From Phytohabitans rumicis (GTDB lineage Bacteria; Actinomycetota; Actinomycetes; Mycobacteriales; Micromonosporaceae): a stretch of DNA of 64,000 nucleotides. The translations under genes were made by a program, and so were the position numbers. The notes beneath the pieces were generated by a model. The model worked only from the letters and a program-made list of their open reading frames with translations, made no database searches and had not been told where the DNA came from. The stretch lies in contig NZ_BLPG01000001.1 of the NCBI RefSeq assembly GCF_011764445.1, positions 3,782,001 to 3,846,000 on the forward strand, given 5' to 3'. Of this stretch, positions 3,172 through 28,890 are shown one piece after another (within the stretch, counting starts at the first letter, position 1; each line of letters begins with the position of its first letter).

Positions 3172-4854
3172 CCTAGCCTTGGTGATTCGCGGTGATCGTC
3201 AAGATGGGTCGTTGGTCGGCGTGTAGATAAGCGAAAGTGCCTCTCCTGCAAGGGAAACTTGTGATTGCGACATCTACAGGTTTCTCTACGAGGGAGGCAC
3301 TTCCGAAGTGCAGTTTACGGCCTGGTCGAAAGATCTGCGGGTCACCGCGGACGGTTCGGGTGTGGTGTCGCATGTCGGCGCAGCGCTGTTGCGGATGCTG
3401 GCCGATCAGGCCGGCCTGACACAGGCGCTATCGGCCGGGTTGGCCCGGCGGAGTTGGTGGCCGGCCCACGATCGGGGTCGGGTGCTGGTCGACCTGGCGG
3501 TGATGATCGCCGACGGTGGCGAGGCGATCTGCGATATCGATGTGCTGCGACACCAGGGCGAGGTGTTCGGCCCGGTCGCCTCACCGGCGACCTGCTGGCG
3601 GGCCCTGGACGAGATCGGCGACGGCCAGTTGCGGCGGATCGGCAAGGCCCGCGCGCAGGTCCGCGCCCGCGTCTGGGCGCTGCTCGGCCAGCTACCGGCC
3701 GCGCGGGCGGCAGGCCGGGACATTGGTGAGGGTGTGGTCGTGCTCGATGTCGACTCGACGATCGTGCTGGCGCACAGCGACAAGGACGGCGCGGCACCGA
3801 CCTACAAGCACAGCTTCGGGTTCCATCCGATCCTGGTCACCTGCGACAACACCGGCGAACTGCTCGCCGTCAAGCTGCGGCCAGGCAACGCCGGCGCGAA
3901 CACCGCCACTGATCACCTTGAGGTCTTGGCGGAGGCGTTCGCGCAGATCCCGCCCGCCCATCGGCGGCGTCTGTTGGTCCGCGGCGATTCGGCCGCCGCC
4001 AGCCACGCCGTGTTGGACTGGCTGAGCGAGCAAGGCACCAAGCGGGGCCGCAGCGTCCAGTACTCGATCGGCTGGGCGATCGGCGAGCCGGAGCGGGCCG
4101 CCATCGCCGGCATCCCCACCTCCGGGTGGGCGCCAGCGATCAACGCCGACGGCGGCGTCCGGGACGGCGCGCAGGTCGCCGAACTGACCGGCCTCCTGGC
4201 CTTGACGGGCTGGCCGGACGGGATGCGAGTGATCGTGCGCCGCGAACGCCCGCACCCCGGCGCCCAACTCTCCCTGTTCGAGGAACGCGACGGCTGGCGC
4301 TACACCGCGTTCATCACCGGCACGAAGGTCGGTGCGCTGCAGTGGCTGGAGGCCCGACACCGCGCCCACGCCCGCGTCGAAGACCGCATCCGCTGCGCGA
4401 AAGACACCGGCCTTCGCCGGCTGCCCTCCCGCGAGTTCGCGATCAACCAAGCCTGGTGCACCGCCGCCGCGGTCGCCGTCGACCTCATCTGCTGGCTCCA
4501 GCTCATCGGCCTGGACGGCGACTTGGCCGTCGCCGAGCCCAAACGGCTGCGCTACCGGATCCTGCACACCGCGGCCCGCCTCGTGCGCGGGCAACGCCGC
4601 CGCTGGCTACGCATCCCATCAACGTGGCCGTGGGCCACCCAGATCACCGCCGCGTTCAACCGGATCGCGGCGATCCCCGCACCCGGCTGACCAGCTCAGC
4701 CCCTGGCCCACCGACCGGAGGACCACAGGAGACCACGCCCGCCGACGCGATAGCCGGCCATTCAACCTGCCCGCCAGCAAACCCCATCGACCAGCAGCGA
4801 TGAAATCAGACGGGCAGACCCGAGGCGTCAGACGCGCGAATGATCGAGGCTAGG
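3172..4854 (+). mobile_element. IS1380-family insertion sequence, complete, 1683 bp
   Basis: The ends carry 20-base inverted repeats with 17 matches: CCTAGCCTTGGTGATTCGCG at the left and CCTAGCCTCGATCATTCGCG read inward from the right. CGCGGC flanks both sides (3166-3171 and 4855-4860), a clean 6-bp target duplication. The family usually makes 4-5 bp, so part of the match may be chance. One transposase gene fills the element. It interrupts the nucleotidyltransferase gene, and the intact repeats suggest recent insertion. Confidence 0.88.
3308..4690 (+). CDS. IS1380-family DDE transposase
   Basis: A 460-aa transposase. VVVLDVDSTIVLAHSDKDGA carries the first catalytic aspartate, followed by the family-typical YKHSFGFHPILV, a second block LLVRGDSAAASHAVLDWL, and a C-terminal region with RLPSREFAINQAWCTAAA. 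Length and order agree with full-length IS1380-type enzymes, so it is probably active. It catalyses cut-and-paste movement of its own element by binding the 20-bp ends. The codon usage matches the surrounding high-GC genome. Confidence 0.9.
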   Translation: MQFTAWSKDLRVTADGSGVVSHVGAALLRMLADQAGLTQALSAGLARRSWWPAHDRGRVLVDLAVMIADGGEAICDIDVLRHQGEVFGPVASPATCWRALDEIGDGQLRRIGKARAQVRARVWALLGQLPAARAAGRDIGEGVVVLDVDSTIVLAHSDKDGAAPTYKHSFGFHPILVTCDNTGELLAVKLRPGNAGANTATDHLEVLAEAFAQIPPAHRRRLLVRGDSAAASHAVLDWLSEQGTKRGRSVQYSIGWAIGEPERAAIAGIPTSGWAPAINADGGVRDGAQVAELTGLLALTGWPDGMRVIVRRERPHPGAQLSLFEERDGWRYTAFITGTKVGALQWLEARHRAHARVEDRIRCAKDTGLRRLPSREFAINQAWCTAAAVAVDLICWLQLIGLDGDLAVAEPKRLRYRILHTAARLVRGQRRRWLRIPSTWPWATQITAAFNRIAAIPAPG

Positions 4855-4978
4855 CGCGGCCGCGACCGGTAACGCCCGCGGGAAGAACACCAGGAGAAGC
4901 TCCACTATGGACACGAGCCATGATCTGCTATCAACAGTTCGCGATCACCGAGACCGTGCCAGAGCCATTTCGTCCTGA

Positions 4979-5902
4979 CCGTTGACAGAGGAGACGACCG
5001 ACGGCAGATCGGAACCCCGACGCACCCACCAATCGGCCGCTCGCTGCGTTGTCCCGTGGAAACCCGCACGGCCGTCGTCGGCCTTGCGACCCGTAGGGTA
5101 CGGTCCGGGCTGCGCTGGCACTTCAGATGGAGCTACCGGGTGTCGGCTACTGGACAAGGCGGGTCTTGACGGCGGACCTTGCGGTTACATAGACCATTGT
5201 TAAGCAGTGGTCCTGTGCTCTGGCCGGCAGCCTCCCCGGCCGCCTCACTCGCAGGCCGGCGTCACTACATAGACAGTACACGGTGGGGCGTCGTGTGCTG
5301 TCGGCTGGATGGGGATCGGACTCACCTCGGCAGCAACCTGGCAACTGCAACTGCGGTTGCTCTCGGATTGCTTACAAGCAGCCGGTCCAGCGTAGAAGAC
5401 TAGACGAAGGCAATCGCGGACCACCGGAACGAGATCGCCAGCCAATTCCTCAAGGTCGCGGCCTAACCTCCCAAAGCAGGGTCGTCCACGGGAGGACGGG
5501 GCGAGGCCCTTTTGGCGGTCAGTGCGACTCCAGCCGAGCCGAGAAGAGCGCACGGCGCGTGGATCCATCAGGCACGTCGACGGGTATCGTGAACGCACGT
5601 CGGCGAGATCCCGTGCGGAGCGCCGTTGGGGATGTCGTTAGCCATACTCGCCTAGCTGACCAGCTCATGGTCGGGCCGGCTGGCACAGCCGGAGCAAATC
5701 CCCTCCACCGGCATGCCCTACAGCCACGCTAGGCTCCGCGCCAACGTGAAACGATGCCGCTCGTGCGGGCAACGAAGCACGGGTTGTGTCTCGCCCGCCC
5801 GCCTTGTCTGTCCTCCTCTGCCCGCGTCCAGCGTAGGCATCTTCACGCAGCGCAACAGGTACACTACGCGGGAGCTAGACGTAGGTCGATGTTGGAGGCC
5901 AA
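4979..5902. other. Intergenic stretch of about 920 bp, no gene recognised
   Basis: Open frames here have no recognisable motif or ribosome site and the base composition is more even than in the flanking genes. It separates the IS-damaged gene from the dehydrogenase operon and may contain that operon's promoter. A Shine-Dalgarno sequence TTGGAGG lies at its right edge just before the dehydrogenase ATG. Confidence 0.5.
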
Positions 5903-6661
5903 ATGGCGCACCCCTCGCCCGATGGGGCTTCGTCAGGCGTTCGTGTCCTGATAACCGGCGGCACAGGATCGCTGGGAGAGGCGATGGTAGCCGCCTTCGC
6001 CAAGGCCGGCTATCAGGTCTTCTTTCAGTACAACCAAAACGAGCCGGTCGCACAGCGGCTGCGTTCGACCTATTCAGCAACCGGGCTGCGCATCGATCTT
6101 GCTTCACAGTTCGCGCTTCCCTCCGATGACTTCGATGTCCTGATCAACAACGCCGGCATAAATGAGTCGGAAGAGCTGACAGACCGAGTGGACCCGATGA
6201 TCTGGGAGAAGATGCTACGGGTCAACCTCACGGTACCGTTTCTTCTCATCCGGGCGGTGCTGCCAGGCATGATCCATCGAGGCTGGGGGCGCATCGTCAA
6301 CATCGGCTCGATTTACAGCCTGCGTGCGGCTACACATCGGGCACCCTACGTCGCCACGAAGCACGGGCTCAGCGGCCTAACCAAAACCGTCGCCCGGGAA
6401 TACGCAGCCCACGGCATCACTTGCAATGAGATCTGCCCGAGTGCGGTCGAGTCTCGAATGATGAACCGTATCGCAGGGGACAAGGCGCAGCGTCAGGGAA
6501 ACACGATTACCGAGATCTTGGATGGATACCGGGCACTCATCCCCGCTAAGCGGATGGCAACACCCGAGGAGGTAGCTTCGACGTCACTGCATCTTTGCAG
6601 CCCCGCCGCCGGATTCATCAACGGCGCCTCCGTGCCGGTAGACGGCGGACTGCTTACTTGA
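5903..6661 (+). CDS. Short-chain dehydrogenase/reductase (SDR)
   Basis: A classical SDR of 252 aa. The dinucleotide-binding motif VLITGGTGSLGEAM is at about residue 15, the NNAG motif at about 87, the catalytic serine in NIGSIY, and the YVATKHG active-site Tyr-x-x-x-Lys at about 150. The C-terminus (AAGFINGASVPVDGGLLT) is typical of FabG-like enzymes. It should be a soluble NAD(P)H-dependent oxidoreductase; the substrate cannot be read from sequence. The start has a good GGAGG site six bases upstream. It is 81 bp upstream of the NTPase gene in the same direction. GC content is visibly below the window average, suggesting horizontal acquisition together with the next three genes. Confidence 0.85.
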   Translation: MAHPSPDGASSGVRVLITGGTGSLGEAMVAAFAKAGYQVFFQYNQNEPVAQRLRSTYSATGLRIDLASQFALPSDDFDVLINNAGINESEELTDRVDPMIWEKMLRVNLTVPFLLIRAVLPGMIHRGWGRIVNIGSIYSLRAATHRAPYVATKHGLSGLTKTVAREYAAHGITCNEICPSAVESRMMNRIAGDKAQRQGNTITEILDGYRALIPAKRMATPEEVASTSLHLCSPAAGFINGASVPVDGGLLT

Positions 6662-6742
6662 CATACACAACTGCGGTCGGTATGGATGGCCGCTCACGGA
6701 GGGCCAACACGGGGATCCAAGCCAGATAGAAAGGGTACGACC

Positions 6743-9700
6743 GTGGCTGAGTCGCCCGACGTGTTACTCAGCATGGGCCCGGAAACGGTCCGGTTCGCAG
6801 TGTGGAGCGATAGCCTCCTGGCTGCCGACGAACTCATTGCCCGATTGAACGAGTCCGGACAGACCGCAATAGCGGTCACAGCGGAGAGCGAGCCGTCTGG
6901 GGAATGTCTGGTTCTCCTAACTCACAAGCCTCAGCCGTCGCCAACGGAGCTAGCCACCTGGATCCGGCTGGCAAACAAATCTCAATTTCACATCATTGTG
7001 CGTTCCGTCCATCGCAGCATACGCCCGCCTCAGTCTTGGCCGAGCGGCCTTACCGTCTCCTGGAGCGGTGAACTACGCGACATGAGAGCCCTCGCCAGGT
7101 CGCTCGGTGAGCTGCTTCGGCCGGCTGTCTCGAGCTTCGCTCGCCTACCAACCATGTATCCAATTGACCTAGTACTGCCCGGTGTGCGTATCGCCGATAG
7201 CCGACACGCACTCGTCGAACAGCTCGCCGCCACCGATTTGCCGCGCATCGTCCCGGTCTCGAGAGGGCTGTTCGACGATCTTCGCCGTCCAATTCCAGCA
7301 GTCAGTCGACAAGACTACGACCTGTCACGACTTGTCCGATGGAGTATGAGCCGGTACAGTCGCGCCTTCATCAGGCCAAGGATCGGCCGCCTGAATGAAC
7401 TCTCAAGCCCGCCTACCGCACCACGATCCTTGGACGATGTGGTCTCCGACGCTCGCACCAGGCGGCTAGTTCTACTGCTCGGCGAACCGGGGTCAGGAAA
7501 AACCCAGCAACTGCACTACTTCGATGCACATGCGGCGCTTCGATCGATCCGCGCCGGGGACTCATGGATGGCAAATTCGTTCTACGTCGGGCTATCGGAG
7601 CAACCAGCACAGCCAAATATTAGCCTCGACTGGCTATCCCAGCGCTGGCAGAAGAAGGTAGACGTGCACCGCTGGTGTACGTTCGACCAATTTCTCGCCG
7701 ATGGCGGCACCGTTCTGGTTGACGGCCTGAACGATGTCGGTATCCGAGCGATGCCACTAGAGCAGTGGATGTTCCATTGGCGCGACGTCATCGAGGAGGC
7801 CTTCGAAAGCGGTGCGGGACGCGTCGTGGTCGCCTGCCGCACTCGAGATCAGCTCATCCCCCTGCGAGGACCGCGAGGCGATCGACCGACGGCGGTCAGC
7901 ATGCTTCCGCTATCGAAACAGTACGTCGTAGCGATCGCTACTCAGCAAGACCCGGAGGCGGCGCGCCGGCTTGACGACGCCATGACTGCTGATCCGGGAC
8001 TTGCTGAACTTTACTCGAACCCGTTCCGCTTGGTCGTCTACCTAGAGTCCGGAGTACCGGGCGTAGTTACTACTGGAGCTAAGCTCTTCGGATTCCATAT
8101 CTCGGCAGCCATTCTCCGTGAACGCGACAATTTGAACTTCCACAGGGACCTCATACCGGCGACGGCCGCAGCGCGTCTAGCAGATATTCGGGAATCGGGA
8201 ACTGGCGACCCGTGGCCGATCCTAGCCACCATTCCACTGATCCGTAGCCTTGGCGCCCTAGCAAAGGTTCTCACCTTCCCCATCGAGCCACGTGGGCGGG
8301 CACGGTTGACCATACCGCGTGACGACGCGGACCAGGTACTAGCCGAGGCGCTTCATGAGATCAAGCATCCCGTACTGGACTCAGACCGCGTACTGGACAC
8401 CGTTCGGGATCTTCACATACTGGTCGAGGAGGACTCCAAGATTAGGTTCGTGCACCCCTCGTTACAGCATCTATTTGCGGCATCGGGCAGCGGCGTCAAC
8501 GAAATTGTCACCCTGGCACAAGATGAGCGAGGGCTCCGCAGAAGTCGCACTCAGATGTCCGCCGAGGCCGCAGTTCCGCCACAGACCATTACGCCACCAA
8601 CCTACGTAGACTATCGCTACGACGAGGTATTCCATTTCGCGGCGCAGCTTCGCGGCGTCGAGCTTCCGAACCGGCTGGTCGACGTAGATCCGGTTCTCGC
8701 GGCCAGGCTATATCTGTCCACACGCCAAGAGGCAGACACCCAGGTGGCCGCGAACATTATAGCCACTCTCCGTTCTGAGCTTGATCGCGTGCGGGAACAC
8801 GGCGAACGCAGCGCAATCATCGCTGCCCTGGGTGATCTCGGTTGGCGCCTACCAGATCCACGAGACGATAGCCTGCGTGCCCTCGCGGTGGTCCCGGCCG
8901 GCGAATGGCGTCTGGGGATGCGCTCAAGCGACGATCGCCTGCGGCGTGGCAGCGCAAGCGAGTTCCGGATCATCGAGCTGCCGTCGTTCCGCGCGTCGCG
9001 CTTTCCGGTGTCCAACGCAGAGTTCCTCGCATTCATCGAGGACGGCGGGTACCACGAAAAGGCGTTTTGGACCCCTGAGGGTTGGGAATGGCGCATGCGG
9101 AGCCGTACGGTCGAGCAGTTTGTAACAGACTGGAGGCGCCGCCGCGATGTTCTCCGTCGCCATCCTAAGCGCATCGTCGAGCTCCTGCGTTCCGGGCGCG
9201 CAACTCCAGCTGGGGCTGCCGCCTTGGTGCGCTTCGCTGGCTTGGAGGATGCTGACATAGCGGAGCATGCGCGTAGAGTGCAAAGTCGCCGAGCGATTAC
9301 GCCAAAGTACTGGGACAGAGCAGAGTTGACGAATCCACTCCAGCCTGTTGTGGGGGTGTCATGGTTCGAGGCCAACGCTTTCTGCAAGTGGCTGGGCAGC
9401 GCTCTCGATGCTGTGGTGCGCTTACCTAGCGAACACGAATGGGAGGCCGCGTGCCTCTATTCACTCGACCTGAGCGATACCGCCGAGGTAGGCCGCATTG
9501 CTGGCAACACACGCGATCTCGCCTACCCTGCAACTACGCCAATCGGCACATTCGCCACGCCACGTCAGACTGAGCTTAACTTGCCAGTCGAACTCCTGGG
9601 AAACGTCTTCGAGTGGGCATTCGACTACTATGCACCGGGCGACCACAATCGGCGAATCGTCAAGGGTGGATCATGGCGGCAGGAAAGCTGGCGTGCGCAC

Positions 9701-9784
9701 CCAGCGTACCGTGGTCGTGGCGACGTCGACGCACAGAACGAAGACATGGGGTTCCGATACGTGATCACGGAAGGACGCGCATGA
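6743..9784 (+). CDS. Large P-loop NTPase (NACHT/STAND-like) with C-terminal FGE-sulfatase/C-lectin-like domain
   Basis: A 1013-aa multidomain protein. Residues 1-125 show an alternating beta/alpha pattern that may be a TIR- or flavodoxin-like fold (inference). The P-loop GEPGSGKT is near residue 250 and a Walker B-like TVLVDGLNDVG near 322, followed by an all-helical region as in STAND/NACHT ATPases. From about 716 to the end is a formylglycine-generating-enzyme (SUMF1) fold: VVPAGEWRLGM, FPVSNAEFLAFI, VVGVSWFEANAFCKWL, LPSEHEWEAA, LLGNVFEWAFDYY and RIVKGGSWRQ. The final segment reads SWRAHPAYRGRG, where active enzymes carry catalytic cysteines, so this domain probably binds a ligand rather than modifying proteins. 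I chose GTG at 6743 because AGAAAGGG precedes it; an ATG at 6686 is in frame. Likely a sensor/switch in a conflict or signalling system. Confidence 0.75.
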   Translation: MAESPDVLLSMGPETVRFAVWSDSLLAADELIARLNESGQTAIAVTAESEPSGECLVLLTHKPQPSPTELATWIRLANKSQFHIIVRSVHRSIRPPQSWPSGLTVSWSGELRDMRALARSLGELLRPAVSSFARLPTMYPIDLVLPGVRIADSRHALVEQLAATDLPRIVPVSRGLFDDLRRPIPAVSRQDYDLSRLVRWSMSRYSRAFIRPRIGRLNELSSPPTAPRSLDDVVSDARTRRLVLLLGEPGSGKTQQLHYFDAHAALRSIRAGDSWMANSFYVGLSEQPAQPNISLDWLSQRWQKKVDVHRWCTFDQFLADGGTVLVDGLNDVGIRAMPLEQWMFHWRDVIEEAFESGAGRVVVACRTRDQLIPLRGPRGDRPTAVSMLPLSKQYVVAIATQQDPEAARRLDDAMTADPGLAELYSNPFRLVVYLESGVPGVVTTGAKLFGFHISAAILRERDNLNFHRDLIPATAAARLADIRESGTGDPWPILATIPLIRSLGALAKVLTFPIEPRGRARLTIPRDDADQVLAEALHEIKHPVLDSDRVLDTVRDLHILVEEDSKIRFVHPSLQHLFAASGSGVNEIVTLAQDERGLRRSRTQMSAEAAVPPQTITPPTYVDYRYDEVFHFAAQLRGVELPNRLVDVDPVLAARLYLSTRQEADTQVAANIIATLRSELDRVREHGERSAIIAALGDLGWRLPDPRDDSLRALAVVPAGEWRLGMRSSDDRLRRGSASEFRIIELPSFRASRFPVSNAEFLAFIEDGGYHEKAFWTPEGWEWRMRSRTVEQFVTDWRRRRDVLRRHPKRIVELLRSGRATPAGAAALVRFAGLEDADIAEHARRVQSRRAITPKYWDRAELTNPLQPVVGVSWFEANAFCKWLGSALDAVVRLPSEHEWEAACLYSLDLSDTAEVGRIAGNTRDLAYPATTPIGTFATPRQTELNLPVELLGNVFEWAFDYYAPGDHNRRIVKGGSWRQESWRAHPAYRGRGDVDAQNEDMGFRYVITEGRA

Positions 9785-10086
9785 CCTCCCAGGAGCCGGA
9801 CAACACCGGCAGAAGCAAGCCCGAGGAAGATCAGATGCACGCGGCGCAGCCAGGCGCCGAGGACCTAGTGGGCGAGGTCGCGACGCTCGCTGCCGACCCC
9901 GATAGCGACGACGCGGAGATCATCCGAAGGCTGGCGGTCCTGGCCGACCAGTTCTCGGTTGACGAGGTCTTCGCCGTCATGGTCCGCTACGACACCCCGA
10001 CATCCTCGGCTAGCCGAGTCACCCGGCGTCTCCCGCCACACGATCTGCCCAATCGTCGGAGTGTCACGGCCGCCGCCGCGGCGTAG
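9781..10086 (+). CDS. Small acidic protein of unknown function, coupled to the NTPase gene
   Basis: A 101-aa protein whose ATG overlaps the TGA of the NTPase gene (ATGA), so translation is probably coupled. The first 30 residues are polar and acidic. Residues 30-70 (LVGEVATLAADPDSDDAEII and RRLAVLADQFSVDEVFAVMV) look like two amphipathic helices and could be a protein-protein contact module. There is no transmembrane segment or signal peptide. I do not recognise a family. Its position between the NTPase and the aldolase suggests an adaptor or regulator of the NTPase, by inference only. Confidence 0.6.
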   Translation: MTSQEPDNTGRSKPEEDQMHAAQPGAEDLVGEVATLAADPDSDDAEIIRRLAVLADQFSVDEVFAVMVRYDTPTSSASRVTRRLPPHDLPNRRSVTAAAAA

Positions 10087-10181
10087 CCTGCGCGAGTCTG
10101 CCGCACGGAGACGCTTCGCCGTGGCAAGATCAGTGTCGTACCGCCAATAGGTTGCGGCGGGGAGTGCATGCGGAGGTCCAC

Positions 10182-11051
10182 GTGCTAGCTCAGATGGGGA
10201 TGACCAGACGGCTGCAGCAGCTACTGCCACCCACGAGGGCTGCACTCTGGCTGCCGCTCGACGATTCTCTTATCTCCGGCCCAGAGGCCGGCTTGCGTCA
10301 CCCGAACGCCCTGCTGGAGCAGGAGATTGTCGACCACCTGACCGGCGTCCTTGGCTTCCGCGGAACGTTCACTGCCTGCCAGAAGGAACTCCGCAATACG
10401 CCCATAATTATGAATCTAAGCGCGAGTACGGTCCGTAACGAGCACACCCACAAGGTGCTGGTGGGCACAGTGGTGGACGCGATCCGGGCCGGTGCACAGG
10501 CAATCGCCTACCACATCAACCACTCGTCGCCCTTTGAGGCTGCAGGACTGCGCGAGCTTGGAAGGCTCGCCCACGAGGCAGACGATCTAGGCATCCCCGT
10601 GGTGGTGATCGCCTATCCGCGTGGCCGCAAAGCCGACGGGACGGACGAGAATTACCTGACCATCCGTGAAAACGACCAGGAGGCCTTCACACGGCTTGTC
10701 CGACACTGCGTACGTCTCGCAGTCGACTTGGGTGCATCAGCCGTCAAGACCATCTACACGGGCTCGGTGGAATCGTTCGAGACCGTGCTGTCCGCAGCAA
10801 TGGGCGTACCGGTGGTCATAGCCGGAGAACGACTGGCGGACGTCCCAGAAGCGCTTGCCAAGGCCCAAGCCGCAATCCAGGCCGGCGCAGCTGGCGTAGC
10901 ATACGGACGCCAAGTGTTCGAGCGCGACGATCCAGTAGCATTCGTCCAGAAGCTGCGTTCGGTTCTGGACGACGAATGGACCGCAAGAGCCCGTCGTCAA
11001 CGCAGTCTCCACGAAGCGACAATTGATCAAACATCAGTCAAGGTCAACTGA
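10182..11051 (+). CDS. DhnA/FbaB-type class I (Schiff-base) aldolase
   Basis: A 289-aa TIM-barrel enzyme related to class I fructose-bisphosphate aldolase of the DhnA/FbaB type and to 2-amino-3,7-dideoxy-D-threo-hept-6-ulosonate synthase. Visible landmarks are WLPLDDSLISGPEAGL near the N-terminus (MDHGxxxGPxxGL in relatives), the Schiff-base lysine in ASAVKTIYTG at about residue 188, and the phosphate-binding C-terminal part VPVVIAGERL...GAAGVAYGRQVF. It should condense or cleave a phosphorylated sugar; the exact donor is unknown. The GTG at 10182 has CGGAGG six bases upstream. It ends the SDR-NTPase operon, and its last 25 bases overlap the convergent gene at 11027. An SDR plus an aldolase could build a small molecule linked to the NTPase sensor (inference). 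Confidence 0.78.
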   Translation: MLAQMGMTRRLQQLLPPTRAALWLPLDDSLISGPEAGLRHPNALLEQEIVDHLTGVLGFRGTFTACQKELRNTPIIMNLSASTVRNEHTHKVLVGTVVDAIRAGAQAIAYHINHSSPFEAAGLRELGRLAHEADDLGIPVVVIAYPRGRKADGTDENYLTIRENDQEAFTRLVRHCVRLAVDLGASAVKTIYTGSVESFETVLSAAMGVPVVIAGERLADVPEALAKAQAAIQAGAAGVAYGRQVFERDDPVAFVQKLRSVLDDEWTARARRQRSLHEATIDQTSVKVN

Positions 11052-11539
11052 ACCGTTGTTGCGGCGAGTCTACGCTCCAATGCCGTGCGCCCATCTGAAG
11101 TCAGAGCTTCCAGACCGCCCTGACCAGTGCGTAACCAACTTCGTCCCGAAGAGTCGACGATCACTAAAGCCGGGATGAGGGCAAGTCGCCCGGAACGGTC
11201 CGCCAGCCGCTCATAGTCGTGCGGAAGGCGTAGTATGCGTGTCTGCCCAGGTGCGAAAGAGACCTGATCCGCTGCGGCCAAGAGGCTGCCCTCCGAGAAG
11301 AACGCTTGGATCACAACGGCCACATCGTTGCCGTTCCGGATTTGCGCCTGTCGGCTGTTGACCACCCATGCGCTCACCTTCGCGGCCTGTGCCCGTTCAC
11401 GATCCCTCTGCTCCCGGGCTCGCTCGGCCACGCTACGCCGGTATGTGAATGCCGCGATCATCAGCGACGACCCGGTCATGACCGACCCAACCCAGGCAGG
11501 AACGTTCCCCCAGTCCAAGCCAAGCCAGCCATCCGCCAC
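11027..11539 (-). CDS. Hypothetical protein with one N-terminal membrane segment
   Basis: A 170-aa protein. Residues 12-35 (VPAWVGSVMTGSSLMIAAFT) form a single transmembrane helix followed by YRRS and an Arg/Glu-rich coiled region, so the remaining soluble part probably faces the cytoplasm. The C-terminal half is beta-rich (VAVVIQAFFSEGSLL, TRILRLPHDYERL, LALIPALVIVDSSGRSWLR). Such proteins are common in actinobacteria without known function. It is convergent with, and overlaps, the aldolase gene by 25 bases. Confidence 0.65.
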   Translation of the reverse strand: MADGWLGLDWGNVPAWVGSVMTGSSLMIAAFTYRRSVAERAREQRDRERAQAAKVSAWVVNSRQAQIRNGNDVAVVIQAFFSEGSLLAAADQVSFAPGQTRILRLPHDYERLADRSGRLALIPALVIVDSSGRSWLRTGQGGLEALTSDGRTALERRLAATTVQLTLTDV

Positions 11540-12584: not shown

Positions 12585-13903
12585 ATGGCTACGGCCGTTA
12601 CGAAGCGTGCGACCAGAGGCACCGGCGGGATGACGTTCTTCCTGTCCGCGATGGATCCTCGTGCGAAGGTCAAGGGCTCGCGGGACGGGCTCGGCGCGCA
12701 GGGCGTGTGGGCCGCGGCAGGGCGCCCGCTGATTGGCAACCTGACCACGGTCACATCGTCGCTGCGCGGCTTCACCACGCTGCTCGTTGGGCTGCGACTA
12801 GCCGCGCAGACCGCGGCCGATGACGCGGCGGACTCCGCAGCCAACGCGTTCCTGGTCTGGGAGCAGATGGTCGGGTACGCCCGACACGTGGTGCATGAGC
12901 ATCGCGGCTTCTTCGGGTACCAGCGTGTCGCGGCCCGAACGGCGGCTGCGAAGGCCGACGGCGGAAGGGTGCGGCTATCGGCCCATTCCGGGGAGCAAAT
13001 CCTGGGCAACCAGCGCACGGACGGCCTGTTGGGCAACTACACCGCGCCGGCGCGGGTGTCCGGCCTGGTGCGACCGGGATTCCCAGTCCGGCTCACGCCT
13101 GAGGCAGCTGCGTTCGTCGACGATGTCTACATGCCTCGGTTGGCGCAGGCGTGGGGGCGGGAGGCACGGGACCTGGTCCGGGCGTTGGGGCAGGACTCAG
13201 TGTCGTTCGATGTCCGGCCCAATCAGCGACTCGCGGCGGTGGCATCGCTGTTCGACGCTGGGCTCGGTGCCGCCGAAGCGAGGTTCTACCAGCGTCACCT
13301 GGTGCAGGGAGGACCGTCCGATCCCACTTCCGGCCGGCAGGTGCGCTTCGCCGCGATTCTTGGCGCGCGGCTTGCCGAGTCGGAGCAGCTGTCGCAGGCG
13401 GTGATCGCACAACTGGCCGCCGACGCGGATGAGGGAGGCTGGGGGACGTAGCCGGGCTTCTGCGGAACATCGGAGCCTGCGAGTCGGTACTCGCGCCGGC
13501 CACCACGCTGTTCTCCTATCTGCTGGGCCGGGACGGCGATCGGGTCGAGGCGATCGCGGCCGACGTACGGAAAGCGTGGGGAGGTCGGCTGGACTCGGTG
13601 CACCCCGAGGCGCTATCGGTGCTGCCGGCCGGGGATTGGCGTGCAATCGCCACCTCCCTTGATCACGGTGACTATGCGGGTGCGGTGACGGCGTTGGTCG
13701 GGCGCAATGCTGCGGTGATGAGCGCCCGCGGTGGCGCCGCGCCCTGGCTCGACATCAGCAATGGCAGGGTGCGCGTACAGTTCCGTGGCGACGAGGCCGG
13801 CTCCCTTCTCGACGCCGACGAAGTACGCCAATTGTGGTGGTATCCGTATTTCATTCCTTCGCTGCGTTCGATCCTGACGACCCTGCAGAAGGGGCGACCG
13901 TGA
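12585..13903 (+). CDS. Unknown protein, first gene of HKD-nuclease/SNF2 operon (frameshift at a G run)
   Basis: Two adjacent frames (12585-13451 and about 13442-13903) join into one protein of about 439 aa if one G is added to the GGGGG run at 13441-13445, giving DEGGW-G-D-V-A-G-L-L-R-N. The N-terminus (TFFLSAMDPRAKVKGSRDGL, then NLTTVTSSLRGFTTLLVGLR) is distinctive, and the middle is helical. There are no membrane helices and no catalytic motif I can name. The C-terminus (VRVQFRGDEAGSLL and LWWYPYFIPSLRSI) is unusually aromatic. The start at 12585 follows GGAGGG. Its stop overlaps the HKD gene start by four bases (GTGA), so it is a fixed partner of the nuclease and helicase. A substrate-recognition or assembly role is inference. 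Confidence 0.6.
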
Positions 13904-15903
13904 GCGAGACGATCCCGAACGCGGTGCTGAGCGAGGCGCTGCGGGAAAGGTTGAACCGGCGGACGGTGCTAGCCGCGGTGTTCTGCACGTTCCGCTTCGA
14001 TCCCGGCTTCTTCGAGCAGGAGGTCCTTCCGCTCCTGTTCGACCTGCAACTCCACCAGGTCGCTAGCGTCCGCAAGCTGCAGTTGGAGGACGCACTGCGG
14101 CCCCTGGCCGGCCGCGTGGCGGTCTACTACGACCCGGGCGGTCTCGAGGAGGGCGGCCGCGGACCGGCGTCCCTGGATGTGCGGCGCATCCCGGTACGGC
14201 CGCGCACGGGCTACTTCCATTCGAAGAACCTGTTTTTGCTGGTGGAGGATCCCGACACGGCGGTGCGATCGCTGCTTGTCATGACGGCGTCAGCGAATCT
14301 CACGCAGGCCGGCTGGTGGGAGAATGTGGAGTGCGCCCACGTCGAGGAGATCGCGGATGGCGGCCGGTCGCGGCTGCGCGAGGGTCTACTCGACTTCCTG
14401 GACCGCCTTCGAGCATCGTCGCGGACGATCGCGGAGCACGGCCCGCTCGACACGATCCGTCAATTCGTCCGACAACTCCAACCCGTGCCGCACCGCTCGG
14501 CGCAGGGCCGACTGCACATGCACTTCATGGCGAATGGCCGCCGTGGTGGCTGGTCGTTCGCTGAGCTGCTGCGTGACCTGCTACCCGATGACATCGCCGG
14601 AGCCAACCTGGAGATCATCTCACCGTACCTTGACGACGCGGACAGTTCCGAGCCCCTCGCCGCGCTGCTCGACCTGGTGCGGCCCCGCAGGTGGCGGATC
14701 CTTCTACCCGAGGACGGTGGCGCGGCGCGCTGCCGAGAGTCGCTGTTCGACTGGGTCCGCCAAGAGGGTGGCCAATGGGGGCGGCTGCCGGGAACACTGA
14801 CCTCGGCAGGCGACAGGAGTGCGGCTCCGCGCCGGGTGCACGCCAAGATGTACCGGTTGTTCACCACCGACCGCGAGGTCGTCGTCCTCGGGTCCTTCAA
14901 CCTGACCCGACCGGCGCACCAGGCCGCCGGCAACGTCGAGACCGCGGTCTTGGTCGAGGGACCGGCCGGTACGCGCCGCCGGTTCTGGCTCCAGCCTGTC
15001 GAGGAACGGCCGCTGTTTGCCGACGTTGCAGCCGAAGACGACGGTGTGGACACTGCCGTCATCCCGCTGGTCGTGCGATACCACTGGGACAGCGGCCAAG
15101 CCGAGGCCATGTGGGACGGCAGAAACCCAAGCCCAAAGATCGACGTGTACGCCAACGGCGTGCAGATCTTCACCGTGGCGGACCTGCCGGCCGGGGCCCG
15201 GACAGAGCTGCCGGTTGCCGCCAGCGAGGCGCTGCGTGATCGGCTGCGATCCACCAGCTTCCTGACGCTACGGACTGGAGAGCGGTGGGGCATCATCCTC
15301 GTCATGGAGGAGGGTATGGCCTATCGACCCTCTCTGCTCCTGGACCTCAGTCCGGCCGACATCCTGCGGTATTGGTCGCTGCTCACGCCGGCGCAGCGGG
15401 CGGCGGTCCTCGCCGCGCACGGCGAGCGGCTGGCCGACTTCGAAGGGGTCGAGAGGCTCAGCAGCCCCCTCACGGAAGACGTCACCGCCGACTCAATCTT
15501 CGACCGGCACGCCGGCATGTTCCACGCGTTCGGATCGCTGGCCCGCACCGTGCTCGGCGCCTTGGCGGACGGCGGCGCGGAGCTGGCCCGGTTCAGGATG
15601 TTCGGCGCCAAGTACGACTCGCTACCCGTACTGGTGGAACGGCTCGCCGATGACGCGGCGGGTGACCCGCTGGACCGCTACCTGATGCTGCTATGCGCGC
15701 AGCAACTCGCCGATCGCGTCCGGCGTGACCGGCCGGAGTTCTGGGCCGGTGAGCCAGGCGGTGTCGCGCGGCTGGAAACCGCGCTCGCCGTACGCGCCCG
15801 CCTCCGTGCCGAGATCACTGCCCGGAACGACGAGCAGATGGCCTCATTCCTCGACTGGTACGAGGTGCGGTTCCTGCGCGAGGCCGAGGCGGTGCCTGCG
15901 TGA
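13900..15903 (+). CDS. HKD (phospholipase D superfamily) nuclease-like protein
   Basis: A 667-aa protein with two PLD-type half sites. FHSKNLFLLVED...SANLTQAGWWENVE has its histidine near residue 106, and VHAKMYRLFTTD...LGSFNLTRPAHQ has its histidine near residue 313. Pairs of HxK motifs with downstream Asn, as here, form the single active site of PLD-fold nucleases and also occur in DISARM DrmC and other defence effectors. Residues 400-667 are helical and lack motifs. I start it at the GTG at 13900, which overlaps the previous stop (GTGA), rather than at the upstream ATG 13834. It couples by another GTGA to the SNF2 helicase. Expected role: cutting foreign DNA loaded by the helicase. Confidence 0.82.
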   Translation: MSETIPNAVLSEALRERLNRRTVLAAVFCTFRFDPGFFEQEVLPLLFDLQLHQVASVRKLQLEDALRPLAGRVAVYYDPGGLEEGGRGPASLDVRRIPVRPRTGYFHSKNLFLLVEDPDTAVRSLLVMTASANLTQAGWWENVECAHVEEIADGGRSRLREGLLDFLDRLRASSRTIAEHGPLDTIRQFVRQLQPVPHRSAQGRLHMHFMANGRRGGWSFAELLRDLLPDDIAGANLEIISPYLDDADSSEPLAALLDLVRPRRWRILLPEDGGAARCRESLFDWVRQEGGQWGRLPGTLTSAGDRSAAPRRVHAKMYRLFTTDREVVVLGSFNLTRPAHQAAGNVETAVLVEGPAGTRRRFWLQPVEERPLFADVAAEDDGVDTAVIPLVVRYHWDSGQAEAMWDGRNPSPKIDVYANGVQIFTVADLPAGARTELPVAASEALRDRLRSTSFLTLRTGERWGIILVMEEGMAYRPSLLLDLSPADILRYWSLLTPAQRAAVLAAHGERLADFEGVERLSSPLTEDVTADSIFDRHAGMFHAFGSLARTVLGALADGGAELARFRMFGAKYDSLPVLVERLADDAAGDPLDRYLMLLCAQQLADRVRRDRPEFWAGEPGGVARLETALAVRARLRAEITARNDEQMASFLDWYEVRFLREAEAVPA

Positions 15904-18900
15904 TCAGCGTCGGGACGGCGGAACGCCTGCTGGACCTCAACGGAGTGATAGACAACCCGCGGCGCGCGGCCGACCAGCTCGAGGGCGCGGTCGCCGTACA
16001 CAACATCCTGCACCGGCATGGCATCGCCTACCTGGCCGACGAGGTCGGGATGGGCAAGACCTATGTGGCACTCAGCGTCGTCGCCTTGCTGCGCCACTAC
16101 CAGCCGGACCTGCGGGTGCTCGTCATCGCCCCACGAGAGAACATCCAATCCAAGTGGCAGCGGGAGCAGCGGGTCTTCACCAAGAACAACGTGCGTATCG
16201 ACGACCTGCGCACTCGGATGCCGAGCGGCGAGCCGGCTCGGCCACTCGTGCACTGCCCAGACCTCTTCACACTCGTCCGGGAGACCGCCGTGGACCCGGA
16301 CCGCGATTTCTTCGTCCGGCTGCCCAGCTTCAGCTTGCCAATGCGCAGTGATCCCCAGCAGCGCCGCAAGCTCCGCGACCGCCTCCGTGCTGAGCTTCCG
16401 TGGCTGCCCGATCAGGTCCTGGACCTGCGGGCCAACACCGAGGACCTCAAGAACCGGATCGCGCAGGCCATCAACACCGTCTTGCCGCGGTTCGACCTCG
16501 TGATCGTGGACGAGGCACACAATCTCAAACACGGCTGGGGCGAGCACGTCTCGTCTCGCAACCGGGTCCTTGCCACCGTGCTCGGTCGGCCCGGGGCGCA
16601 ACCCGCGAACCCGCTGCGGGCGCGCTACGGCCCACGCGCCGACAAGGTCCTGTTGATTTCAGCCACGCCCGTTGACGACGACTATCGCCAACTGTGGAAC
16701 CAGCTTGATGTCTTCGGCCGCGCAGACCCGTTCCCGGCGCTGAAGGACCGGGCTGCGGGCGACGAGGACCGGCGAGCCGCGGTCGCCGAGTTCCTCATCC
16801 GGCGGGTCACCTCCCTGGAGGTGGCCGGAGATCGGCTGACCAAGAATCTCTACCGGCGCGAGTGGCGCCAGGGCGGGGTCCTCACCTATGACGAGCCGAT
16901 CAGGATCACCGACGACCGGCAGCGGCTTACGGTCGCGCTCGTCCAGAAGAAGGTCAGCGAACTGCTGGGGCACGAGCGCTTCGGCTCCAGATTCCAGATC
17001 GGCATGCTCGCGTCGTTCGAGTCGTTCCTGCAAACAACCAAGATCCGGCTGGACCCGGACGATGACACCGCCGACGAATTCGCCTTCGACGCCGCCGACC
17101 AAACCGCCGACGCGACGGAGCGGCAAGGCCTCGACGTCGGGATGCTAAATGGCCTCGCCAGGGCCTATTCGCGACGCTTCGGCGCCGAGTTGCCGCACCC
17201 CAAGATGGACGCGCTCGCGCAAAGCCTCGCGTCGTCGTGGCGTGGGGTAGGAAAGGTCTTGTCTTCGTACGCCGGATCGCATCGGTCGACGAACTGCGAC
17301 AGAAGCTGAACCGCTCGTACGACGATTGGCTCATAGCGCGTCTACGCGCACGGCTCGCCGAACGGCACAGCGCCACCCTTGCCGCGGCGGTCGATGACTA
17401 CCGGAGCCAGTCGCTGCGCCACCGCTCACCGTCCACGATGGACGCACCGGACGGTGAGGACGACGACACGGGCGGCACAGACACGTTCTTCGCCTGGTTC
17501 TTTCGCGGGCGCGGGCCGGCCAGCATCGTCAGCGGCGCCACCATCCAGGAGCGGTTCCGCAACCGTGCCGGGCCGCTCGGGACGTTCTTCGACGACAACC
17601 ACGTCATGGCCGTACTCGGCGCCGCAGCCGGCGGTGTTAGCGCCGCCTTGGCCACCGCGCTCGGCCGCCCGGACCGCACGCTACAGGCTGAGCTGCGGCA
17701 ACTGTCGCGCTACTACCTCACCCGGGCGAAGCAACCGACCCGCGGTGCCCGTTTCGACGCCGCGCAGGCCGCCGCGCTGGAACTGCTGGCCCACCATAAC
17801 GGACCTCATCAGGCGATGGCCGAGACAATCTGGCGACAGCTGTACAGGACGTACCGCCTCAGTACGCCGGTAACCGCCGAGGCCGAACCAGAGTTGCTGG
17901 AGACCACTACCTTCTTCACCCTGCTGCGGCAGCGCAAGGAACTCCGCGACGCGATCTGGCCCCCACCGCGCGGTGGAACCGCCACGGAGCCCGCCGATGC
18001 GTTCCGCGAGCAGCACGTCCGCGCGCAACTGCTCTCCGCCGCCGCCCGGCTGGGCCACGCCTTCATCGACCTCTACGCTACGGTCGCCGATCACCTGCCC
18101 ACGCTCGACGCTGCCACCGCTATCGACCCCGACAGCGCCGTCGCCACCAGCTACCTCGACGACCTGCAACGACAGATGAACCGGTCACTGTACGACCGGG
18201 ACTGGGCTGCGTACGACGAGCTAGCCGCCCTCGCCGAAAACCACGACCTCGTGTTGGACACCACCTTGCCGGACGTGCGGCAGGCACCGCTGCACGAAAT
18301 CCCACCCTAGTCGGGCGACTGTTCGGCGCCCAGCAGCCGGTCGGCGGTATGACGGGCAAGGTCAACCACCGGCTGGTCCACCAGTTCCGCCTGCCCGGCT
18401 ACCCCTTCGTGCTGATCTCCACCGATCTGCTCCAAGAAGGCGAGGACCTGCACACCTTCTGCTCCCGGGTCTACCACTACGGCCTGGCCTGGACGCCCTC
18501 GGCCACCGAGCAACGCACCGGCCGTATCGACCGAGTGCGATCACAGACCGAGCGTAGGCTCAACAAACTCCACGACACGCCGAATGGGGAGGACCTCCTT
18601 CAGGTCTACTACCCGCACCTCGCGGACACCGTCGAACGGCTCCAGGTCCGCCGGGTGATGCGGCGCATGAACGACTTCACCCGGCTCATGCACCACAGTC
18701 TCGCAGCCCCCCATGGCGGCGACAGCCATCTGGACATATCCCAGGAGGTGTTGGTCGACGACGAGATCCCAGCCCCACCGACTGCGCTCCTTACCACGTC
18801 CTTCCCTGTACGCGAAGATCACCTGGCCGGAGACGACCGGCCGCTGGCGGTCGACAAAGAACGCGCCCGGCGGCAAATCTCCCGATTCCACTCGTTGAGC

Positions 18901-19350
18901 GACCACACACTGGCCGGTGTGACAGTGATGTGGGAACGGATTCAGCCACCCGGCTGTCTGTTGCTCGGCACCACCAGGCTCAACAGCGGCCGCCACCAGC
19001 CGTTCAGCCTCCAACTCGGCTGGGAGGACGAGCATCTCGCGGTACGGTGCATCAGCCCGGTCGGCCTGATCGACCAACGCCAGAACTGGCGCGATCTCTT
19101 CGAATCAACCGCCGGCACGCCCATCCGGGTCGGCGTCGTCAAGGTCCGCGGCAAGGCAACCTACGATGTCACCGTCGAAGAGGATGTCATCCTCACCGAC
19201 CCCGGATCCGACGCGGCCCGCGTCGGCGCTCTGGTCCGCCGGGTCACCATCCAAGCCGACGCCCTGGAGCAGCAGCACCTTCCCGACCGCGACGCGCTGC
19301 TCGCGGAATTCCGGACAGAGTTGGAGCGAGATGTTCGACACGCGGGATGA
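15900..19350 (+). CDS. SNF2-family helicase, split by two single-base frameshifts
   Basis: Three successive frames join into one Swi2/Snf2 ATPase of about 1150 aa. 15900-17250 holds the P-loop LADEVGMGKTYVAL near residue 48, the DEAH box LVIVDEAHNLKH and LLISATPVDDD. About 17250-18300 is a helical insertion. About 18270-19350 holds VLISTDLLQEGEDLHTF and ATEQRTGRIDRVRSQ (motifs V and VI). The breaks are repaired by adding one G to the run at 17244-17247 and one base near the CCC runs at 18299-18307. All helicase motifs survive, so I think the gene is intact and the sequence is in error. The start GTG overlaps the HKD stop. It probably translocates on DNA and feeds or controls the nuclease. Confidence 0.75.
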
Positions 19351-26836: not shown

Positions 26837-28890
26837 CCGGCGCGCGTCGGGGCGGGTTCCTGGGATGCGGTGATCGAGTTCGGTTCCGCGGCGACTACTT
26901 CACGGTGCTGCGAGTGTCAGGAACGCTGGTGGTGCTCGGCGACGACTCGATGCGGACACCGGAGCAGGCGGTGCGGCTGAGCGAACTGCAGTCGGATCCC
27001 GACTTCACGGTGCTGGGCGCCGCGACCTCGGCGCGAGTGCCGGCGTCGTCCTGGCTGGTCGGCCTGCCGAAGGACGTGATGCAGCAGGCCCGCTGGTGGG
27101 AACGGCACGTGCTGGAGGTGATACGCGGCGTCGCGGACGACCCGGTGGACGCCGGTCCGAAGCCGCAGTACGACGTGGCGTTGACGACGATGGTGGCCAG
27201 GGAGCGGGCTAAGGCCGATGAGTTGACCGCGTCGGGCTATCTGACGTCGGCGCGCACGGTCCGTCGTCAGCGGCAGCGTTACGAGGCGCAAGGGCTGGCC
27301 GGTCTGGTCGATGGCCGGCACCGGGCACGGCACCCGTCCACGGCTTCTCGCGCTGATCAGAAGGTGATCGCCGCGCTGCGCGCGGCGATCGACGAGACCG
27401 TTGATGCGTCCACGCGGACGGTCAGCTATCTGATCTGGCGCGCCGGGCAGCTGCTGGTCCAGGAACACGGCGATCAGGCGCCGCCGATGCCACCGAGGTC
27501 GACGTGCTACCGGCTGGTCGCGCAGTTGTCGGACAAGCACACCACCGGCTCGGCGCGCACCCGGCGATCGTTGGCCGGTCAGCCGGACAAGCCGTTCTCG
27601 CATCTGCCGGTCGACGCGCCGGGCGAGGTGGTGCAGATCGACACCACACCGTTGGACGTGTTGGTGCTGCTGCCTAACGGGATCGTCGGCCGGGTGGAAC
27701 TGACCGGCATGATCGACGTCGCCACGAGGACGGTCACCGCGGCGGTGCTGACACCGACGACCAAAGCGGTCGACGCGTCGGTGTTGCTGGCCAGGTCCGT
27801 GACGCCGGAGCCGATGCGGCCGGGCTGGGTCGACGCGCTGCGGATGGCCTACTCGGTGCTGCCGCACCGGCGGCTGCTGGCCGTCGACGAGCGCCTTGAG
27901 CACGCGGCGGCCCGGCCGGTGATCATCCCGGACACGATCGTCTGCGACCAGGGCAAGGTGTTCATCTCGAACAATTTCCGCTCGTCCTGCCGGTTCCTGG
28001 GCATCAGCTTCCAGCCGACCCATCCCGCGTCCGGGGCGAACAAGCCACACGTCGAGCGGTTGTTCGCCTCTGTCGGCACCCTGTTCGCTCAGTTCGTGTC
28101 CGGGTTCGTCGGCCGGTCGGCGGAGCACCGCGGTTTCCGCGTCGATCAGCAGCCGCTCTGGACGATGCTCGAGTTGCAAGCCTTGCTGGACGAGTGGCTC
28201 ATCGCCGGATGGCAGAACCGGCCGCACGACGGACTGCGTGATCCGCAGACCCCGGGCCGGGCGTTCACCCCGAACGAGAAGTACGCGGCCCTGGTCGAGG
28301 CCGCCGGCTACGTCCCGGTCGCCATGACCGCCGACGACTACATCGAGCTGCTCCCGGCGACCTGGCGGCGAGTCAGCGCCGGCGGCCTGAAGATCAACAA
28401 CCGGACCTACGACTCGGCCGTGCTCAATCCGATCCGCCGCCAGCCGTCCGGGATCGCCAGCCGCCGCGACCTCTGGGAGATCCACTACGACCCTTACGAC
28501 GTCGCTCACGTCTGGGTCCGTGATCACCGGCCGAACAGTGCGAGCCGATGGCTGCAGGCCACCTGGAAGCACCTGTCCAGGGCCCCGATCCCGTTCGGGG
28601 AACTCGCCTGGAACCACGTCCGCGCAGGTCTGGGACCGAAACCCGACGAGACCGCCGTCGCCGACGCCGTCCATCGGCTGCTGGCCAAAGCCAACAACGG
28701 TCCGCCACAGCCCGCCCTGTCGGCCCGAGACCGGCGGGTCGCCGCCCGCACCGCGGCCACCAGCGAGAACCGGCCGGTCCCGCGGCAACATCCACCCGCC
28801 CCGGAGCCGGACACCGACGAGCCGCAACCGGGCAAGGTGATCCCGCTGCGTGTCTTCGACCCCGCTGAGGAGGCCCGCCGCCCATGGTGA
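26833..28890 (+). CDS. tnsB: TnsB-like DDE transposase (Mu transposase C-terminal type)
   Basis: A 685-aa protein. Residues 110-200 carry HTH repeats (GYLTSARTVRRQRQRYEAQG). The rve core has Asp in VVQIDTTPLDVLVLL, Asp in PDTIVCDQGKVFISNNF, and Glu in SGANKPHVERLFASVG. The Mu-type beta-barrel (LKINNRTYDSAVLNPIRR) and a long C-terminal tail for TnsC contact follow. It joins 3' ends to target DNA and recognises the TCTGACA repeats. Coupled by GTGA to tnsA and overlapping tnsC by 7 bases. Confidence 0.92.
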   Translation: MTGARRGGFLGCGDRVRFRGDYFTVLRVSGTLVVLGDDSMRTPEQAVRLSELQSDPDFTVLGAATSARVPASSWLVGLPKDVMQQARWWERHVLEVIRGVADDPVDAGPKPQYDVALTTMVARERAKADELTASGYLTSARTVRRQRQRYEAQGLAGLVDGRHRARHPSTASRADQKVIAALRAAIDETVDASTRTVSYLIWRAGQLLVQEHGDQAPPMPPRSTCYRLVAQLSDKHTTGSARTRRSLAGQPDKPFSHLPVDAPGEVVQIDTTPLDVLVLLPNGIVGRVELTGMIDVATRTVTAAVLTPTTKAVDASVLLARSVTPEPMRPGWVDALRMAYSVLPHRRLLAVDERLEHAAARPVIIPDTIVCDQGKVFISNNFRSSCRFLGISFQPTHPASGANKPHVERLFASVGTLFAQFVSGFVGRSAEHRGFRVDQQPLWTMLELQALLDEWLIAGWQNRPHDGLRDPQTPGRAFTPNEKYAALVEAAGYVPVAMTADDYIELLPATWRRVSAGGLKINNRTYDSAVLNPIRRQPSGIASRRDLWEIHYDPYDVAHVWVRDHRPNSASRWLQATWKHLSRAPIPFGELAWNHVRAGLGPKPDETAVADAVHRLLAKANNGPPQPALSARDRRVAARTAATSENRPVPRQHPPAPEPDTDEPQPGKVIPLRVFDPAEEARRPW

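Follow-up and report, generated by a model that had tools for sequence, protein, structure and literature searches.

What is a signalling-type NTPase with a C-lectin-like end doing between two metabolic enzymes? The question is raised by a locus at positions 5903-11051 of a 64,000-nucleotide stretch of DNA (hereafter the window), which corresponds to positions 3782001-3846000 of contig C1 in genome G000 (10.7 Mb, 3 contigs). A preliminary description had claimed that the locus holds co-directional genes for a short-chain dehydrogenase/reductase (SDR), a STAND NTPase ending in an FGE-fold domain, a small protein and an aldolase, and Pfam searches and alignments have confirmed all four; a fifth element which it did not contain, a convergent gene for a membrane protein, is kept in three other loci. 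We show here that the STAND/FGE protein, the small protein and the aldolase form one conserved unit that is inherited together, usually with an SDR gene upstream. The cassette, found in soil actinobacteria, is a real, conserved and apparently undescribed variant of STAND-FGE systems that is equipped with a dedicated metabolic module.

Linkage between the genes was examined in 354 genomes of the same family as the window. Fourteen of these passed a STAND model (A1, built from six copies, limit 1e-25): seven carry a copy of the window type (G000, G006, G084, G098, G139, G185 and G222) and two a copy of a second type (G068 and G325), the remaining hits being a copy cut by a contig end (G129), two relics (G067 and G340) and two remote relatives (G031 and G173). 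An aldolase model (A2, built from seven cassette copies, limit 1e-35) was passed by 65 genomes, and the scores were bimodal, with nine at 5.6e-112 or better, the contig-end fragment of G129 at 2e-60 and the rest at 1.7e-46 and weaker. The nine intact STAND-FGE genes and the nine strong aldolases occupy the same nine loci, with the aldolase always within 2 kb of the STAND gene (338-507 bases away in the window type, called type A here, and about 1.7 kb in the second, type B). The linkage of STAND and aldolase is beyond chance. G222 and G325 lie outside both models, yet were recovered by both, and in G129 the aldolase and STAND-FGE fragments are both found at contig starts.

The relic in G067 retains residues 1-487 of a close STAND relative followed, 66 bases on, by a match to the last 27 aldolase residues, and a single deletion would account for all that is missing: the C-terminal half of the STAND gene, the small gene and the bulk of the aldolase. 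G340 has only an FGE piece left, with no cassette neighbour. The two STAND remnants that lack an aldolase are therefore broken copies. The remote relatives (loci L040 and L041) are both intact, at 26-29% identity, and lack an SDR/aldolase cassette; they are a different kind of system. In L040 a CHAT-NACHT-FGE protein sits next to genes for an MNIO enzyme (MbnB/TglH/ChrH), a radical SAM enzyme and a small protein that contains Cys, which form a cassette of the type that makes ribosomally synthesised and post-translationally modified peptides. The L041 gene and its neighbours are homologues of the L040 genes, CHAT being established for L040 only.

The aldolase matches DeoC/LacD in Pfam (1.5e-22), and its closest solved structure is MJ0400 (4.5e-29), with an archaeal class I fructose-bisphosphate aldolase also aligning. 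Residues D33, Y153 and K184 of MJ0400 (numbered from the alignment) are those which we take to be the catalytic Asp, Tyr and Lys; the Asp and Tyr are present in 10/10 cassette aldolases and the Lys in the nine full-length rows, the G129 fragment stopping before it. With these three residues kept, the cassette enzymes belong to the DhnA-type class I aldolase superfamily, and they share family, catalytic Asp and Tyr and Schiff-base Lys with DhnA/ADHS aldolases such as MJ0400 ADH synthase and GriI/BagB/FevI. They differ from these in an insertion next to the active site: the Tyr lies 31-32 residues from a fixed downstream point in the cassette compared with 16-21 in the background, which amounts to 12-13 extra residues relative to the commonest background length of 19. 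The motif [DN]GxDxN[YH] within this insertion is found in 10/10 cassette aldolases and in 0/35 others, a background from which one more row had been excluded as being in the wrong frame. At a site which is presumably the expected phosphate-binding place, type A has AGE (7/7) rather than the AGG of type B (2/2 full-length), and the background reads AGG, SGG or VGG (35/35). In place of a 3-dehydroquinate synthase (DHQS) or GriH-type partner the cassette has an SDR, with no GriH-type gene among the listed cassette genes, and its scores fall below the NCBIfam cut-offs both for ADH synthase (TIGR01949, 299.45 bits; window 168.8, L038 209.6 and L151 177.6 bits) and for GriI/BagB/FevI (NF041223, 500 bits; window 113.9 bits). 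A first tree of 46 rows required two changes of the cassette label and gave no single cassette clade. In a tree of 40 rows, from which six had been dropped jointly (L118, in the wrong frame; L138, L142, L144 and L149, long or odd; and the G129 fragment), the nine full-length cassette aldolases stand on one side of a branch with support 100/97.

The nine loci fall into two subtypes. The type A order is [SDR]-STAND-small-aldolase (seven loci), whereas type B (G068 and G325) comprises a PNPOx-like gene, an opposite-strand small gene, the aldolase, an EamA-type transporter, an SDR and a TIR-NACHT-FGE protein which is ~30% identical to the window STAND protein. Pfam matches in type B include TIR_2 (1.1e-17 and 1.2e-19), EamA (9.3e-31 and 2.2e-28) and PNPOx, with NACHT and FGE above the cut-off. 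The preliminary description had named, as the finding that would count against it, NTPase homologues that mostly lack the SDR and aldolase; we looked for this and found the aldolase at nine of nine intact copies and an SDR directly upstream of the STAND gene at seven of them. By comparison, 7/294 other called genes were SDR-like at the same BLAST limit, a rough background drawn from 19 loci chosen around cassettes and related genes. The SDR of the window type is found in four of the seven type A cassettes (the window, G139, G185 and G222) at 59-62% identity, with the orthologues lying in L035, L036 and L151, and in G006 a different SDR (25% identity; Pfam adh_short 8.3e-44) occupies the same slot. 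The cassette SDRs of G068 and G325 are about 27-28% identical to that of the window, and the best match to the window SDR in these genomes is another gene (37-39%), so types A and B use different SDR lineages beside homologous STAND and aldolase genes. The window SDR scored 126.7 bits against the mycofactocin-coupled SDR model (TIGR03971), for which the cut-off is 300 bits.

Turning to the STAND protein itself, the window copy has the Walker A motif GEPGSGKT and the Walker B motif VLVDGLND, and both motifs are present in all nine copies; with a STAND NTPase bearing Walker A and B upstream of an FGS domain, the protein counts as a STAND-FGS protein. The window is alone among the nine in reading DGLND in Walker B, the others reading DGLNE. 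NACHT was returned by Pfam for the window copy at 0.14, which is below the cut-off, and for two homologues at 3.5e-10 and 4.2e-09; it exceeds the Pfam cut-off in subtype B only, the window copy being assigned by its motifs and its 30% identity. Six full-length STAND orthologues are 50-53% identical to the window protein. The best-scoring solved structures for the FGE part are the sulfoxide synthases EgtB, OvoA and SenA, from which the cassette protein differs in its NACHT fusion, its scores far below the NCBIfam cut-offs and the lack of a Pfam DinB match in the window protein, on which account an EgtB/OvoA-like synthase was rejected. Nor is it an active formylglycine-generating enzyme, since the copper-binding Cys pair after the GGS motif, at what we assume to be the correct positions, is replaced by Gln/His and Ala in 9/9 copies. 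None of the cassette proteins matched the PADLOC (2023) models, the best score being 0.00018 for STAND (mad8, P-loop part).

The other type A small proteins are 67-73 residues long and end in DTP[DE][LV]LG, whereas the window copy diverges from the family at the last four residues and continues to 101 residues; copies in other loci are intact. Type B small proteins contain a similar stretch (PADSLAxFANVDVPEID) and are 27% identical overall to the first row of the alignment, and the two sets are likely to be homologous. No Cys occurs in the aligned copies. A joint model gave 8 strong matches in 200 genomes, each of them lying at a cassette and itself a row of the model; weak matches in G087 and G128 were rejected as chance, lying inside a larger open reading frame (ORF) of another protein. 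Relatives of the membrane protein are found at 45-51% identity in L035, L036 and L151, where the gene likewise converges on the aldolase and overlaps its end; the loci with a membrane protein are the four with the window-type SDR. A profile hidden Markov model of this protein scored 3.5e-78 for the window, a row of the model, and 3.6e-12 for the next of 76 genomes, with some relative in 9/76; this sample excludes the genomes of L035, L036 and L151. Read by eye, the protein has a single N-terminal hydrophobic stretch which precedes basic residues, and because of this order the rest of it would lie in the cytosol.

In the window copy the gaps between the SDR, STAND, small and aldolase genes are 81, -4 and 95 bases. 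The family alignment favours GTG 6743 as the STAND start over ATG 6686 of the ORF list, and the aldolase start at GTG 10182 is supported by a GGAGG and a start that all six other type A loci keep at the same place, L151 using ATG and the remaining five GTG. The preliminary description had also noted low G+C content. This holds for the window copy, which at 61.3% compares with 67.5% for the whole window and lies below all 195 non-overlapping windows of 5149 bases (250-base steps), but not for the cassette in general: only L035 among the other eight cassettes shows a clear drop relative to its flanks (64.9% vs 70.9%). The low G+C content therefore speaks for late arrival of the window copy and is not a cassette trait. 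Coordinates are collected in the table.

Table. Positions of the cassette genes, of other features of the window and of genes in related loci
Feature	Sequence	Positions	Strand	Remarks
SDR oxidoreductase, 252 residues	window	5903-6661	+	adh_short_C2 2.6e-42 (Pfam); YxxxK catalytic pair (YVATK); GGAGG before start
NACHT/STAND-type NTPase, 1013 residues from GTG 6743	window	6743-9784	+	FGE-sulfatase 1.4e-32 (Pfam); Walker A/B
FGE-fold (C-lectin-like) domain, C-terminal part of STAND protein	window	about 8882-9763	+	
Small coupled protein, 101 residues	window	9781-10086	+	alignments; ATGA overlap with STAND stop, 4 bases
Class I aldolase, DhnA/ADHS-like, cassette-specific clade	window	10182-11051	+	insertion DGTDENY after catalytic Tyr
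Convergent membrane-anchored protein, 170 residues	window	11027-11539	-	25-base overlap with aldolase 3' end
Transposase	window	3308-4690		near cassette
PLD protein and helicase resembling PDC-M27B/C	window	13834-19350		helicase split: 15900-17309 and 18349-19350
TniA/TniB-like transposition genes	window	26929-29918		Mu-type transposase, AAA partner
Defence run	window	38537-63422		type I methylase-specificity fusion, PDC-M02B, UvrD/NERD, DruE-like, type IIG enzyme, DrmD-like, weak DrmB, DrmA C-terminal piece
CHAT-NACHT-FGE protein	L040	5338-8883		neighbours 4277-5341, 8932-9270, 9252-10628
Homologue of the L040 gene	L041	5544-9083		
Aldolase of sister-genome pair	L033	11208-12014		diverged from L034
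Aldolase of sister-genome pair	L034	7213-8010		diverged from L033
Gene with HAD-phosphatase-like start	L036	10799-11461	-	directly upstream of SDR
Gene with HAD-phosphatase-like start	L151	4206-4868	+	directly upstream of SDR

How might these parts work together? The best reading, to which we give a probability of roughly 40%, is that of a metabolite-coupled STAND switch, in which the metabolite, the trigger and the way in which the signal runs are the parts that we infer. Forming a Schiff base on its conserved Lys, the aldolase would link an aldehyde with a ketone donor, dihydroxyacetone-phosphate-like or other, and the product would be reduced by the SDR or a cellular reductase to a small polar compound, either a carbonyl or sugar-like. 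The C-terminal FGE domain, which is without the residues for known FGE chemistry, would then read a ligand, most simply the aldolase/SDR compound; alternatively, it may respond to the loss or change of that compound under attack or on contact with a competitor. Ligand reading would be followed by oligomerisation of the NACHT module. The effect in subtype B would be activation of the N-terminal TIR (putative NAD+ cleavage), whilst in the window subtype, with no detectable effector at the N-terminus, the small protein and, at four loci, the membrane-anchored protein may receive the signal. The EamA-type transporter of subtype B suggests that the compound may cross the membrane. Least certain is the role of the compound, which may be the ligand by which the switch is set or may be what the switch produces once it has fired.

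The preliminary description had proposed, as a possibility, a conflict system that makes or senses a sugar-derived small molecule. The 9/9 linkage supports the conserved unit on which that proposal was built, but a conflict context is not general. The window itself resembles a defence island, with a PLD/helicase pair, a type I methylase, UvrD/NERD, DruE, a type IIG enzyme, DrmD and several transposases. Several findings nevertheless weigh against the metabolite-coupled switch. Ten proteins flanking five other cassettes (L035, L036, L038, L151 and L152) gave no convincing defence match, the weak ones being a DarG-like macro domain (2.4e-10) and an oxidoreductase model (1.5e-11), with eight proteins having none at all; the defence context therefore belongs to the window rather than to the cassette generally, and the case for a defence role comes from the STAND/TIR architecture together with the surroundings of the window copy. 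G084 and G098 have neither an upstream SDR nor a close SDR orthologue elsewhere in their genomes, so the SDR is dispensable or replaced. The N-terminal ~125 residues of type A gave no Pfam or PDB match worth naming; hhalign of the window N-terminus against the subtype B TIR returned a probability of 0.4, and AlphaFold models were too poor to use (mean pLDDT, a per-residue confidence score, 38 for the N-terminal domain, modelled with three sequences, and 44 for the whole protein). The predicted element order E-H-E-E-H-E-H would agree with a TIR-like or Rossmann-like domain, but at such confidence it carries no weight. Few candidates were scored per genome (2 in the STAND survey, 7 in the aldolase survey) and second copies could have escaped. 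Finally, no further strong aldolase was found among 396 phylum-wide genomes (limit 1e-35) or 394 class-wide genomes (limit 1e-50), both samples including a few family members, and with so narrow a distribution the copies may share a single origin, in which case the linkage counts are not independent.

It could also be that the enzymes are the effectors, with an activated STAND guard, whose FGE domain senses an invader, turning on the aldolase and SDR so that a central metabolite, be it an aldehyde, a triose phosphate or NAD(P)H, is drained and growth stops. Parts of PMC8195603 propose STAND-FGS proteins as invader sensors, and another gene may act as effector in the window subtype, where none is detectable, in contrast to the TIR of subtype B; the window also sits among defence genes. 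However, Pfam shows the aldolase and SDR to be ordinary enzymes of one domain each, to which nothing regulatory is fused, the EamA gene of subtype B is left unexplained and other cassettes are not flanked by defence-like genes. This possibility is unlikely, if the best placed of those that compete with the metabolite-coupled switch.

It is likewise rather unlikely that the STAND-FGE protein is a mere regulator of a small biosynthetic operon, that is, a cryptic natural-product locus without a role in conflict. Four non-cassette aldolases (L154-L157) lie in biosynthetic settings, three of them near a 3-dehydroquinate synthase II (DHQS 4e-101 or better) and one near a carrier protein, and EamA may export a product. 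Most of the cassette flanks that were tested are not defence genes; together with the confirmed biosynthetic neighbours of related aldolases, this led us to raise our estimate for such a locus and to lower slightly that for the metabolite-coupled switch. The GriI/BagB aldolases act in antibiotic pathways, where they have partners of the GriH type, as described in part of PMC6692506. Against this, the TIR-NACHT of subtype B is an immune-type architecture, and Pfam shows no DNA-binding domain in the STAND proteins.

A comparison of two sister genomes, whose STAND proteins are almost the same, suggests a further possibility. The DNA of G084 and G098 is ~91% identical in the STAND gene and ~87% in the next downstream gene, but about 75-77% over most of the length of the aldolase between them. 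By the NG86 method, the STAND gene has a dN of 0.036 and a dS of 0.29 (non-synonymous and synonymous divergence), the small gene 0.064 and 0.55 and the aldolase 0.24 and 0.49, meaning that in this one genome pair the aldolase departs in dN and not in dS. Such divergence would fit fast protein change or allele exchange. If the FGE domain were to read a strain-specific aldolase product as a mark of self, with a wrong or absent product firing an NLR-like switch, a mark varying between kin would predict an aldolase dN of this size beside that of STAND. We nevertheless regard a self-mark as improbable. The diverged pair of aldolases lies in L033 and L034.

We hold it still less probable that the small protein is the precursor of a modified peptide, whether toxin or signal, with the aldolase and SDR modifying it or making a group that is attached to it, a pattern seen in actinobacterial peptide-processing systems that neighbour ternary conflict systems. 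FxSxx-COOH precursors keep a C-terminal stretch, according to part of PMC7159879, and that of the small protein is similarly well kept; L040 and L041 also pair their CHAT-NACHT-FGE proteins (CHAT shown for L040) with a small protein that contains Cys and with MNIO and radical SAM enzymes. The cassette genes themselves showed neither a peptidase nor an enzyme of the MNIO or radical SAM kind, although the flanks were not all searched by family, the aligned small proteins have no Cys and the window copy is without the family C-terminus. Aldolases and SDRs of these families, moreover, act on small molecules. As for chance neighbours carried on an island, the low G+C content of the window copy and the nearby transposase and other mobile genes would fit, but the idea is contradicted by the 9/9 linkage, by a gene order kept across genera and surroundings, by the exclusive aldolase clade and by the joint loss in G067, and is scarcely credible.

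On the usual view, bacterial STAND/NLR proteins sense invader proteins or nucleic acids. If the metabolite-coupled switch is correct, a STAND-FGE protein that has an aldolase of its own, and in many cases an SDR as well, would provide an example in which a dedicated small molecule is the ligand or the output. Since the gene set is defined and the strains can be cultured, the ligand of lectin-like FGE sensors in STAND proteins would become testable. STAND-FGS proteins with TIR and other effectors have already been described (in parts of PMC8195603, PMC7159879 and PMC10907252). As in the STAND NTPase-FGS proteins presented in part of Kaur et al. 2021 (PMC8195603), a NACHT-clade STAND is joined here to a C-terminal FGS/FGE C-lectin-like domain, with an N-terminal TIR in subtype B; the cassette differs in adding a dedicated aldolase, an SDR and a small protein and, in the window copy, in having no reverse transcriptase nearby and an N-terminus without a Pfam match. 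The FxSxx-COOH peptide-processing modules of VMAP/FtsH ternary systems, as far as the relevant part of PMC7159879 describes them, also have a small protein with a conserved C-terminus beside the NTPase and TIR-bearing NTPases, but the cassette differs in its aldolase and SDR, and neither a peptidase nor a radical SAM enzyme was seen in it. Among the papers listed by searches of an open-access library, none brings STAND or NACHT together with an aldolase/SDR unit of this kind, and the word "aldolase" appears nowhere in the main text of PMC7159879, PMC8195603 or PMC10907252.

Apart from two genomes that the set already contained, no full-length relative turned up in plasmids, viruses or named genomes: the scan of named genomes, which depends on exact short patterns, found full-length relatives only in Catenuloplanes japonicus (G006) and Actinoplanes palleronii (G185), two names that point to Micromonosporaceae as the family. 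A diversity-generating retroelement, a frequent though not obligatory neighbour of STAND-FGS proteins, was considered beside the cassette and rejected, the sole match to the RVT_1 model, the one model used in this check of the window's own genome, lying on contig C1 at 10.6 kb, which is some 3.8 Mb from the cassette. In L036 and L151, a co-directional gene directly upstream of the SDR has, by eye, a HAD-phosphatase-like start, DLDGTLVDSADGILGSLR, and its product could act on a phosphorylated product.

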